From assembly GCA_019359315.1 (NCBI GenBank), contig JAHHHO010000047.1, forward strand, positions 1 through 42,254: a stretch of DNA of 42,254 bases, written 5' to 3'. Below are positions 31,844 to 33,643 of this stretch, one piece after another; position 1 is the first letter of the stretch, and every line of letters begins with the position of its first letter. This DNA comes from Myxacorys californica WJT36-NPBG1 (lineage in GTDB: Bacteria > Cyanobacteriota > Cyanobacteriia > Leptolyngbyales > Leptolyngbyaceae). The notes under the pieces were generated by a model. It did not search any database and was not told the origin of the DNA. It was given only the letters and a program-made list of their open reading frames with translations. Position numbers and translations under genes: made by a program.

Positions 31844-32599
31844 TTACTGGGGTAGATCGCCAATGAACACAGTGGTCTGGTACTTCAGAAATACTCGCCC
31901 TTGAGGGTCTGCGTAGCGATCGTACAATGCCTTTAGGTCGTTCAGCAGTTTCTCATACGCCGCTCCTGCGCGAGGAACATAAGATCGGCTCTTTGCATTA
32001 CCAATCAATCCTGCTAAATCATGAACTTGTGTGATGGTAAATCTGTAGTCTTGCACGGTTGGAAAGAGTGAATGGTCGGGGAAGCTTTCAGAGCGATCGA
32101 GAGCGGGATGCTTGTCTGAAACCTGGCGCATGAGTTCACCAAATTCGTTGGTAAATGGATCGCTGCGATCGCGACCATTCCACGCTAATGCTAACCGCCC
32201 AGATGGTTTAAGAATGCGATGAAATTCGGTCAGAGCCACTTCTGGATTAAACCAGTGAAACGCTTGAAAACACGTTACTAGATTGACGGACTGATCCGCT
32301 AGGCCCGTTTGTTCTGCGGTTCCTAAGCGATACTCGACATTAAGATGAGGTTCGGCTGCGGCTTGCATCGCGGCATTTGGCTCAATTGCCCAAACGCGGC
32401 AACCGCGCTCACCAAACAAGCGCGATGAAATTCCGGTTCCCGCGCTAATATCGGCCACGACCAATTGAGATAGATCTCCTAAGCCAGAGAGAATTTGAGC
32501 GATCGCGTCAGGTGGGTAACTCGGACGATGGTTAACGTAGTCCGCCGCGCGATCGGAGAAACGATTGAGTGGATCAAGCTGATGGAGAGGAGCCGTCAT
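31844..32599 (-). CDS. Class I SAM-dependent methyltransferase
   Basis: A 251-residue methyltransferase of the Methyltransf_11/UbiE-like type. Motif I is VADISAGTGISSRLF, the acidic motif II is AIEPNAAM, and motif post-I/III is VTCFQAFHWFNPEVALTEFHRILKPSGRLALAWN. The substrate is unknown. ATG 32599. It lies downstream of the candidate small RNA on the same strand, whose terminator would isolate the two units. Confidence 0.85.
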   Translation of the reverse strand: MTAPLHQLDPLNRFSDRAADYVNHRPSYPPDAIAQILSGLGDLSQLVVADISAGTGISSRLFGERGCRVWAIEPNAAMQAAAEPHLNVEYRLGTAEQTGLADQSVNLVTCFQAFHWFNPEVALTEFHRILKPSGRLALAWNGRDRSDPFTNEFGELMRQVSDKHPALDRSESFPDHSLFPTVQDYRFTITQVHDLAGLIGNAKSRSYVPRAGAAYEKLLNDLKALYDRYADPQGRVFLKYQTTVFIGDLPQ

Positions 32600-32646
32600 A
32601 GTGTGTGATGGCGTTTGCGTTCACCCTCATTGAACCATAAACCTAC

Positions 32647-32683
32647 AAAAAGCCCCCAGCCGCGAAGCCAGGGGTGAATCATC
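32647..32683 (-). terminator. Terminator of the candidate small RNA / PHP gene
   Basis: On the minus strand CCCCTGGCT pairs with GGCTGGGGG (nine pairs, three of them G-U) around a TCGC loop and is followed by C and five T. It lies about 85 bases after the PHP stop codon. Confidence 0.75.
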
Positions 32684-32730
32684 AGGGTGCATCTACCATT
32701 CCTCTATACCTGGAGAGGGACGGCGCATCC
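32647..32730 (-). ncRNA. Candidate independent small RNA, about 84 nt
   Basis: Between the PHP gene stop and the methyltransferase there is a complete transcription unit on the minus strand: a promoter (TTGAAC, 16 bases, AATAAT), a start about 7 bases later near 32730, a body with a 5-bp hairpin (CCTCT with AGAGG, 32701-32718), an unpaired-looking stretch GAATGGTAGATGCACCCTGA, and a strong terminator. No open reading frame is seen. The body does not match any cyanobacterial small RNA that I can recall with confidence (6S, Yfr1, Yfr2, PsrR1). A 3' UTR-derived RNA of the PHP gene is an alternative. Confidence 0.5.
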
Positions 32731-32736
32731 GGAGAA

Positions 32737-32764
32737 ATTATTCAGTTTTTTGGCAAACGTTCAA
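32737..32764 (-). promoter_or_regulatory. Promoter of the candidate small RNA
   Basis: On the minus strand TTGAAC (32759-32764) and AATAAT (32737-32742) are spaced by 16 bases, close to a sigma-70 consensus. It begins four bases after the PHP stop codon. Confidence 0.5.
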
Positions 32765-32767
32765 ACC

Positions 32768-33643
32768 TTAGGTCAACGCACCCAATGGCATCGCGGCTTG
32801 CAACTTGTCATGTAATGCTTCAGAAGAGCGCACGGCTGCCATTTTGATCGGCTCTAGCAACGCTAACGGAACCTGCAAACGGTTGAGCCCACAGTATTCA
32901 TCGCGTTTTGTCTCCCGATTGGGACCGTGATAGTCGCTGCCTCCGGTCATTAGTAAGCCATACTCGTGGCACAAAGTTTTCAGTTTATCGACCTGATATA
33001 GGGTGTGGCTTGGATGATAGACTTCTAAGCCCATGAGCCCAGCGTCTACAAGCTCGGGCAGTATCGTTTCGACCCTACCCCCTCGAAACAGATAGGGATG
33101 TGCCCAAACCGGCACTGCACCGCACGATCGCAAAAGCCCAATTCCTTCTGCTGTGCTAAATTTTTCGTACTGCACAAACGCAGGCTTGTCGTCGGCTAAG
33201 AAGCGATCAAAGGCATCCCGCGAAGATTCGACATACCCCGCTTTGACCATCATGGTGGCAATGTGTGGACGCCCGGGAGCCATGCCTTCTCCCATATCAG
33301 GCAATTCCAACGGATAGCCTAAGTCAGCCAGCTTGTTTAGCATGGCTTGAGCGCGACGCTTACGCCCTTCTAGTCGTTGAGCTAAGGGCGGAATTAACTG
33401 TTCTCGATCGGGATAAAAGCCCAGAACATGAAGCGATCGCTCGTTATACACGGTGCTGAGTTCTAGTCCCGGTACGATCTCTAATTCGGCAGGAGCGGCA
33501 TTCAGCGCTTCATCCCAACCGGAAACTGTATCATGATCGGTAATTGCCAATGCCTTAACACCTGCTTTTACCGCCGCGTCTACCAACTCTGTTGGCGTTA
33601 GCGTTCCATCGGAAAAGGTTGTGTGACAGTGAAGTTCTAACAT
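32768..33643 (-). CDS. PHP domain phosphoesterase (YciV/TrpH type)
   Basis: A 291-residue metal-dependent phosphoesterase. Motifs of the PHP domain are present: LHCHTTFSDGTLTP at the start, ITDHDTVSGW, EIVPGLELST, VPVWAHPYLF and GSDYHG. The E. coli homologue hydrolyses 3',5'-nucleotide bisphosphates (pAp) and shortens RNA 5' ends. Substrate here is inferred from family only. ATG 33643. It is divergent from the endonuclease VIII gene; the spacer holds an STRR repeat. Confidence 0.9.
   Translation of the reverse strand: MLELHCHTTFSDGTLTPTELVDAAVKAGVKALAITDHDTVSGWDEALNAAPAELEIVPGLELSTVYNERSLHVLGFYPDREQLIPPLAQRLEGRKRRAQAMLNKLADLGYPLELPDMGEGMAPGRPHIATMMVKAGYVESSRDAFDRFLADDKPAFVQYEKFSTAEGIGLLRSCGAVPVWAHPYLFRGGRVETILPELVDAGLMGLEVYHPSHTLYQVDKLKTLCHEYGLLMTGGSDYHGPNRETKRDEYCGLNRLQVPLALLEPIKMAAVRSSEALHDKLQAAMPLGALT

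Follow-up and report, generated by a model that had tools for sequence, protein, structure and literature searches.

The window considered here is the whole 42,254-nucleotide stretch of DNA from Myxacorys californica WJT36-NPBG1, and the element under study is located on its minus strand between two protein-coding genes. Upstream lies a gene for a PHP-domain phosphoesterase (Pfam PF02811; 32768..33643, minus strand), and downstream is a gene for a SAM-dependent methyltransferase (Pfam PF08241, Methyltransf_11; 31844..32599, minus strand). The small RNA NsiR1, ~54 nt in length, occupies positions 32645..32698 of the minus strand, directly past the stop codon of the PHP reading frame, which is where the initial annotation had placed a minus-strand element. 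This PHP-side place is shared with the congener G288, in whose ORF list no reading frame of 80 or more amino acids was found at the position of the methyltransferase downstream of NsiR1. Among the named loci, PHP-linked copies are also present in Phormidium tanganyikae FI6-MK23 (L146), FACHB-471 (L158), and LEGE 13415 (L166). On the plus strand, a gene for an NMT1-like substrate-binding protein (PF13379; 35219-36580) starts ~1.6 kb past the PHP gene, and the plus-strand reading frames that come after it possibly form an uptake operon.

A covariance model search matched the minus-strand segment 32698-32645 to Rfam family RF02399 (NsiR1) with a score of 55.5 bits versus a gathering score of 39. 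The match spans all 60 model positions (1-60) and is not truncated, with E-values of 2.1e-8 for the window and 7e-10 for the whole genome. It is the sole Rfam match above gathering score within the 42-kb window. By homology, the window element belongs to the NsiR1 family of small RNAs, and the initial annotation, which could not match it to any recognised small RNA, is superseded on this point. The resemblance of the element to SorX (RF02784) is below threshold, with 18.1 bits versus a cut-off of 46.6 and an E-value of 0.13, and is at chance level.

The predicted fold of the window copy has a small stem-loop at its 5' side and the terminator hairpin at the other, joined by a stretch that is mostly unpaired. 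The 5' segment, UGGUAGAUGCACCCUGAU (32681..32698, minus strand), is conserved in the cross-genome alignment, largely single-stranded in the fold, and presumed to be the pairing (seed) region. Positions 3-16 of NsiR1 are identical across 64 genomes with one copy taken from each, an invariance that is partly selected because the copies were found by a pattern over those very positions, allowing up to two mismatches, and from each genome the best one was kept. An intrinsic terminator hairpin (32653..32674, minus strand), supported by a hairpin scan, the fold, and paired changes, has a stem of nine pairs from 32674 to 32653 and is followed by the U run CTTTTTGTAG; here the initial annotation was correct. 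The folding energy of the window copy is not unusual (z = -0.18), and therefore the case for an RNA rests on homology and not on stability. The initial annotation had raised covariance in the stems. In an alignment of 22 copies, hand-chosen from several families, five of nine predicted pairs were changed on both sides with pairing kept, all five in the terminator hairpin, although some of these pairs are broken in other sequences and covariation contributes little (-0.26 kcal/mol).

Upstream of the RNA, the minus strand carries a DIF1 (DIF+) box, TCCGGA, at 32728..32733 (-35 to -30), a distance at which the box is matched family-wide. A -10-like element, TATAGA, is found at 32703..32708 (-10 to -5) and aligns with the conserved G at -11 and A residues at -9 and -7 of the family promoters. 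Together these two elements place +1 at ~32698 and thus give an RNA of ~54 nt; the 5' end in Myxacorys californica WJT36-NPBG1 is accordingly one modelled from the family alignment. TCCGGA at -35 is described as the DIF1 motif found in heterocyst-specific promoters, and the nsiR1 promoter of Anabaena as well studied (PMC6133370, PMC7377430). As judged from these motifs, the window NsiR1 has its own DIF1-type promoter at the canonical distance. The proposal of a stand-alone regulatory RNA between the PHP and methyltransferase genes is supported. The internal hairpin assigned to the RNA in the initial annotation, probably CCTCTCCAGGTATAGAGG, sits instead in the promoter spacer and -10 region, outside of the RNA.

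The DIF1 box is widespread in the family. TCCGGA with at most one mismatch was found at the -35 distance, three adjacent offsets being allowed, in 273 of 287 distinct NsiR1 copies from 64 genomes. Control windows farther upstream gave 0/1435 exact matches and 14/1435 with at most one mismatch. By group, the box with at most one mismatch was present in 83/90 copies from genomes with HetR but no nifD above cut-off, 165/172 from family f7, 19/19 from other HetR-bearing genomes, and 6/6 from genomes without HetR; the corresponding exact counts were 52/90, 130/172, 18/19, and 0/6. These statistics excluded end-cut copies, copies with fewer than 60 upstream bases, and those with more than two mismatches in the 15-base core, and copies identical in upstream region and body within one genome were counted once. 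The loci from a TCCGGA-based scan (at least 118) were also excluded because they had been selected on that motif. For the congener G288 and the PHP-linked loci L146, L158, and L166, the shared upstream features are TCCGGA and the -10 region adjoining the RNA.

The genome from which the window derives (G000; 5.97 Mb, 128 contigs, 99.98% complete) contains four dispersed NsiR1 copies above the cut-off together with two weak matches. One copy each is found on contigs C25, C5, C44, C8, and C15, and the other weak match lies on C125. The 5' segment and the DIF1 box, in one case with a single mismatch, recur in three other copies. The match at G000:C125:77281 (33.1 bits) has neither a DIF1 box nor the conserved 5' segment and was treated as chance. 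HetR is encoded in this genome with a score of 552.6 bits versus the equivalog cut-off of 489, as are one HetP-family protein and, on contig C76, a HetF that scores 821.9 bits with the NCBIfam model CellDiv_HetF, below its curated cut-off of 1200. The search for nifD returned at best a distant match of 45.7 bits versus a cut-off of 653.55. Since nifD was not found above the cut-off, nitrogen-fixing heterocysts are not expected, nor is the heterocyst specificity of NsiR1 expected to apply as such. No NsiR1 copy was found on C76, and no tandem array was found upstream of or divergent from hetF; such an array is a feature of the Nostocales locus and not of family RF02399.

Fourteen of the NsiR1 copies in the promoter survey lack a DIF1 box, and six of these have instead the sequence GGGN5CCC, five at -38/-39 and one at -29. 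This is the sequence that HetR requires according to crystal structures (PMC4192349). Its frequency was 0.3% in mononucleotide-shuffled upstream stretches, and not one of the 273 DIF1-bearing copies has it. The copies in G195 and G288 were recognised by eye from the sequence, G334 has two such sites, and further copies of this type are present in G058 and G083; G118, G201, G352, and G039 also have copies with this sequence. Seven of the eight copies with neither box belong to family f7, including one in G383 whose TCCGGA is displaced, and the eighth is an array member in G201. The copy with the putative HetR-type box adjoins gatB in G000, G288, G195, G058, and G083; in G334, gatB was not found inside the 3-kb locus of that copy. 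In the window genome this gatB-side paralogue (G000:C15:30266-30323; L190:5324, minus strand) scores 32.9 bits, which is below the Rfam cut-off, and its 3' hairpin differs. The window genome thus has NsiR1 promoters of two kinds: DIF1 in four copies, one of them mismatched at a single base, and a HetR-type box in a fifth. The gatB-linked loci L190, L227:3877, L274, L275, and L284 all show GGGN5CCC at approximately -38 in place of DIF1.

NsiR1, HetR, and nifD were searched for across 386 genomes of the phylum, 377 of which have a completeness of 90% or more and a contamination of 5% or less. NsiR1 was above the cut-off in 79 genomes and HetR was present in 79, with both in 77; in other words, 77/79 genomes with HetR have NsiR1 compared to 2/307 without it. 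The Fisher p of 3e-76 is not a probability of independent events because the genomes are related, with 42 of the 79 HetR-bearing ones in family f7. At the family level, all 15 families with HetR also have NsiR1 above the cut-off in at least one of two NsiR1 searches. NsiR1 was detected above the cut-off in 19 of the 21 genomes with HetR but no nifD, and in 0 of the 15 with nifD but no HetR. Thirteen genomes with interrupted, partial, or strong below-cut-off nifD matches were classed as nif-positive, among them G116, whose best match (7.7e-101) is no stronger than would be given by nifD paralogues. These distributions suggest that the presence of NsiR1 follows that of the filament regulator HetR and not that of heterocysts.

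The two HetR-bearing genomes that fall short of the NsiR1 cut-off, G058 and G083, both have a copy below the threshold whose promoter carries a HetR-type box. NsiR1 above the cut-off accompanies no HetR in G227 (11 matches) and G306 (one copy, in the lgt/cobM position described below); neither yielded HetR in a search, run without a positive control, with the HetR protein of the window genome as the query. Five core-bearing copies of G227 were read, and all have one-mismatch DIF1 boxes. At E <= 0.001, 94 genomes match NsiR1, namely all 79 with HetR plus 15 without it, 13 of the latter below the cut-off. The 386-genome search used stricter filters than the smaller searches, such that weak matches can be lost, and an E. 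coli control gave below-cut-off matches in the NsiR1 searches. Of the 13 sub-cut-off genomes, five were inspected. The 15-base core was absent within four mismatches at the matched place in G199, G264, and G079, and was exact in G095 and G235, where neither a DIF1 nor a HetR-type box is present. The loci of the latter two (L276 and L273; family f6, genus g29) carry the exact segment GTAGATGCACCCTGATGA with a different hairpin, and the element is possibly an older or repurposed relative.

Many families of HetR-bearing cyanobacteria share the 5' segment, and the body is thus conserved beyond close relatives, a point left to be decided by the initial annotation. A scan of named genomes (GTDB) for an exact TCCGGA, a gap of 29-33, and GTAGATGCACCCTGATK, a pattern that avoids the usual f7 sequence, yielded at least 118 stretches. 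The taxa include Leptolyngbya sp. PCC 7375, Nodosilinea nodulosa PCC 7104, Microcoleus vaginatus HSN003, and Phormidesmis priestleyi ULC007, as well as Spirulina, Oscillatoria, Okeania, Symploca, and a Trichodesmium MAG. These genera are not known to form heterocysts. At least three records are from heterocystous genera, namely Cylindrospermum, Calothrix, and a Richelia MAG.

Several genomic positions of NsiR1 recur. In G282 (L226) the array and hetF are divergent, an arrangement also described in Nodularia (PMC3610870) and Anabaena (PMC8406250), and single copies divergent from hetF within 212-355 nt were observed in at least five genomes (G060, G062, G358, G027, and G008). Single hetF-divergent copies are present in genomes outside family f7. 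Among the matches listed, NsiR1 lies 1-2 kb upstream of hetF in G195 and G227. The search for HetF covered 39 genomes and matched 37, the match in G306 being to a shorter paralogue only. A second position is at lgt: the copy on contig C8 of the window genome and seven others picked by eye (G195, G209, G253, G306, G062, G039, and G027) all sit at the 3' end of this gene and are encoded on the strand opposite to it; cobM lies on the other side in six of these eight as judged by BLAST. These lgt-facing copies occur in seven families and include that of G306, which lacks HetR by the search described above. Among the matches listed for the 118 named loci, which are not equivalent to genomes since several come from the same genome in some cases, hetF is within 600 nt of NsiR1 in 15, always on the opposite strand, and lgt and/or cobM in 18. 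The hairpin of the lgt-facing copy (L188:6279; L227-L233) could terminate transcription in both directions. In the plasmid collection there was one NsiR1-like match, at NC_019741.1:498-558 of Allocoleopsis franciscana PCC 7113 (81% over 63 query bases, with no listed feature), and in the phage collection there was none.

Such a distribution must be weighed against other readings of the locus. The element might be a dispersed repeat or mobile cassette, consisting of a promoter and a terminator, that has spread in the manner of REP or MITE sequences and has no role of its own. The several dispersed copies per genome, the plasmid-borne copy, and the 120 of 160 named-set copies that, among the matches listed, have no tested marker gene within 600 nt are all in keeping with this. 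A mobile cassette would not be expected, however, to hold positions common across families (the lgt 3' end in seven families, hetF, and gatB), to retain its promoter box and 5' segment while the spacer and stem sequences diverge, or to be so tightly coupled to HetR, and we consider it improbable. Equally improbable is that the element is mainly a terminator or 3' UTR of the PHP transcript. Its strand, its place directly past the PHP gene, and its terminal hairpin would fit, but it has its own DIF1 promoter, as do the PHP-linked copies of G288, L146, L158, and L166, and PHP is near NsiR1 in just 3 of the 118 named loci among the matches listed.

In a rival reading built on the initial annotation, the element would be an unrelated, independent small RNA of ~84 nt with a start near 32730 and a sigma-70 promoter TTGAAC-16-AATAAT. 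These hexamers do exist on the minus strand (32737..32764, read from 32764 to 32737), but they fall outside of the promoter proposed here and match at 9 of 12 positions, which is at chance level: two such sites occur in 32000-33500 compared to 1.4 (sd 1.1) in shuffled sequence. The Rfam match begins at 32698, the RF02399 alignment gives ~54 nt, and it is TCCGGA and the -10 region that G288 and the PHP-linked named copies share upstream. This version of the promoter, start site, and length is thus replaced, and we regard the reading as highly improbable. Least probable of all is a near-leaderless micro-ORF (MHPD...) in place of a non-coding RNA: the ATG at +7 is conserved, with MHPD-stop in 46/90 copies from genomes with HetR but no nifD and MHPDN-stop in 114/172 copies of f7, but the six bases before it are too few to hold a typical ribosome binding site, no in-frame stop occurs inside the RNA in the window copy, the invariance of wobble positions 12 and 15, in part a product of the search pattern, points to conservation at the nucleotide level, and pairing of NsiR1 in trans has been demonstrated in Nostoc (PMC9045159). 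The peptide reading from +7 is probably a by-product of the conserved 5' segment.

The element is thus best considered as NsiR1, the regulation and targets of which are described in Nostoc (PMC9045159, PMC7377430). In Nostoc PCC 7120 there are 12 tandem copies with their own DIF1 promoters, and their expression depends upon HetR; NsiR1.4 binds to the start region of alr3234, a hetP-like gene, whereas NsiR1.1, which is transcribed antisense to the leader of hetF, inhibits translation of that gene (PMC9045159). The hetF start site is at -256, inside nsiR1.2 with nsiR1.1 behind it, and when the -10 box of nsiR1.1 was replaced or removed in Anabaena, the fluorescence of a hetF reporter changed little (PMC8406250). 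This small change weakens the link to hetF.

Possible targets were tested by pairing 26 nt of the window-copy 5' segment, used for all genomes, against leaders, with 100 dinucleotide shuffles each and accessibility outside the model. By this measure, p <= 0.05 was obtained for the hetF leader in one of 18 genomes (G284, 0.04) and for three of eight hetP-family genes in seven genomes (G288, 0.03; G062, 0.04; G253, 0.04). The latter fraction is above chance expectation, yet the positions differ and are inconsistent. For the window genome itself, the p values were 0.13 and 0.88. The complement of the 5' segment with at most two mismatches occurs at 30 places in G000 and 22 in G288, the five exact ones in each being NsiR1 copies. 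With these copies set aside, 25 and 17 places remain versus 8 and 7 for a reversed-pattern control, an excess that may stem from either composition or targets. No conserved target was recognised among the near-complements of these two genomes when they were compared by coordinates with known genes. The one at G288:C20:10712 is within or just behind a hetP gene and has no counterpart at the hetP gene of G000. A one-mismatch complement at G000:C119:55720 is inside a hetF paralogue, but its strand does not allow pairing with the mRNA.

By analogy with Nostoc, the proposed pathway would lead from HetR via HetZ and the DIF1 promoter to NsiR1 and then to a translational block of targets in trans, and the gatB-linked paralogue would be bound directly by HetR. 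The 54-nt RNA would act through its single-stranded 5' segment, preventing translation of target mRNAs as for alr3234 and hetF. In this organism, where no nitrogenase gene was found, NsiR1 may serve an older use of the HetR circuit, such as a decision of cell fate or division in the filament, for example fragmentation, with the ancestral circuit recruited for heterocysts later on. The hetF-divergent copies of other genera point to the divisome protein HetF as a possible ancestral target, but none was found beside hetF in the window genome. From the sequence comparisons, the window copy is probably a base-pairing small RNA controlled by HetR and HetZ that belongs to an ancestral multicellularity circuit later adopted for heterocysts. 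More tentatively, and with somewhat less than even confidence, NsiR1 may be the ancestral small-RNA output of HetR, retained in HetR-bearing filaments through DIF1 (HetZ) or, for the gatB paralogue, HetR bound directly, and the paralogues positioned at hetF and lgt/cobM would be ancient; it would tune HetF-dependent division or terminal cell fate (necridium, fragmentation) without heterocysts, and the tandem array would be a later expansion in heterocyst formers.

The window NsiR1 resembles that of the Nostocales in its covariance model, 5' segment, length of ~54-60 nt, terminator architecture, DIF1 promoter at -35, and occurrence in several copies per genome. Unlike there, the host has no nifD above the cut-off, the copies are dispersed with no 12-fold tandem array, none was found beside the host hetF, the window copy lies behind a PHP gene, and one further paralogue has a HetR-type box in place of DIF1. 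The published picture of NsiR1 is that of an RNA specific to heterocysts and dependent on HetR, encoded in tandem arrays beside hetF; in the Nostocales its transcription depends on NtcA as well. Both NsiR1 and the DIF1 promoter were already known, and an NsiR1-like RNA in the non-heterocystous Limnospira had already been noted (PMC8400943). That RNA, RNA162 of Limnospira indica PCC 8005, is 57 nt long, is described as NsiR1-like, and is discussed as responsive to gamma radiation in Limnospira morphotype P6 (PMC8400943). Like the window NsiR1, it is found in a filamentous cyanobacterium said to lack heterocysts and N2 fixation, the likeness being one of description, and the portion of the account available discusses hetR-patS in Limnospira, with no promoter or phylum-wide HetR coupling found in that portion (PMC8400943). 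In the literature searched, no mention was found of a phylum-wide NsiR1-HetR link, of lgt/cobM or gatB paralogues, or of a HetR-box class, an absence that is weak evidence.

PatX differs from NsiR1 in that it is a small protein with an RG(S/T)GR motif and not an RNA. The PatX/HetR pair was reportedly described by Elhai and Khudyakov in 2018. Like NsiR1, PatX goes with HetR in filamentous cyanobacteria, has DIF1 promoters, and is thought to predate heterocysts (PMC7761841, PMC11298460). HetR together with PatX, and a predicted patX-hetR DIF1 promoter in Leptolyngbya, are known in filaments without heterocysts (PMC7761841, PMC11298460), in which the role of hetR and patX was called a mystery in 2024 (PMC11298460). 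A 54-nt RNA associated with a DIF1 or HetR-type box provides a concrete and assayable output for the question of what hetR and patX do in the absence of heterocysts. The question becomes one of when and where in Leptolyngbya-like filaments NsiR1 acts, and on which mRNAs; genetic work is feasible in at least one such strain, and hetR, patX, and double deletions have been published for Leptolyngbya sp. BL0902 (PMC11298460). If the proposed reading is true, NsiR1 would change from a "heterocyst-specific" marker to a marker of a pre-heterocyst circuit.
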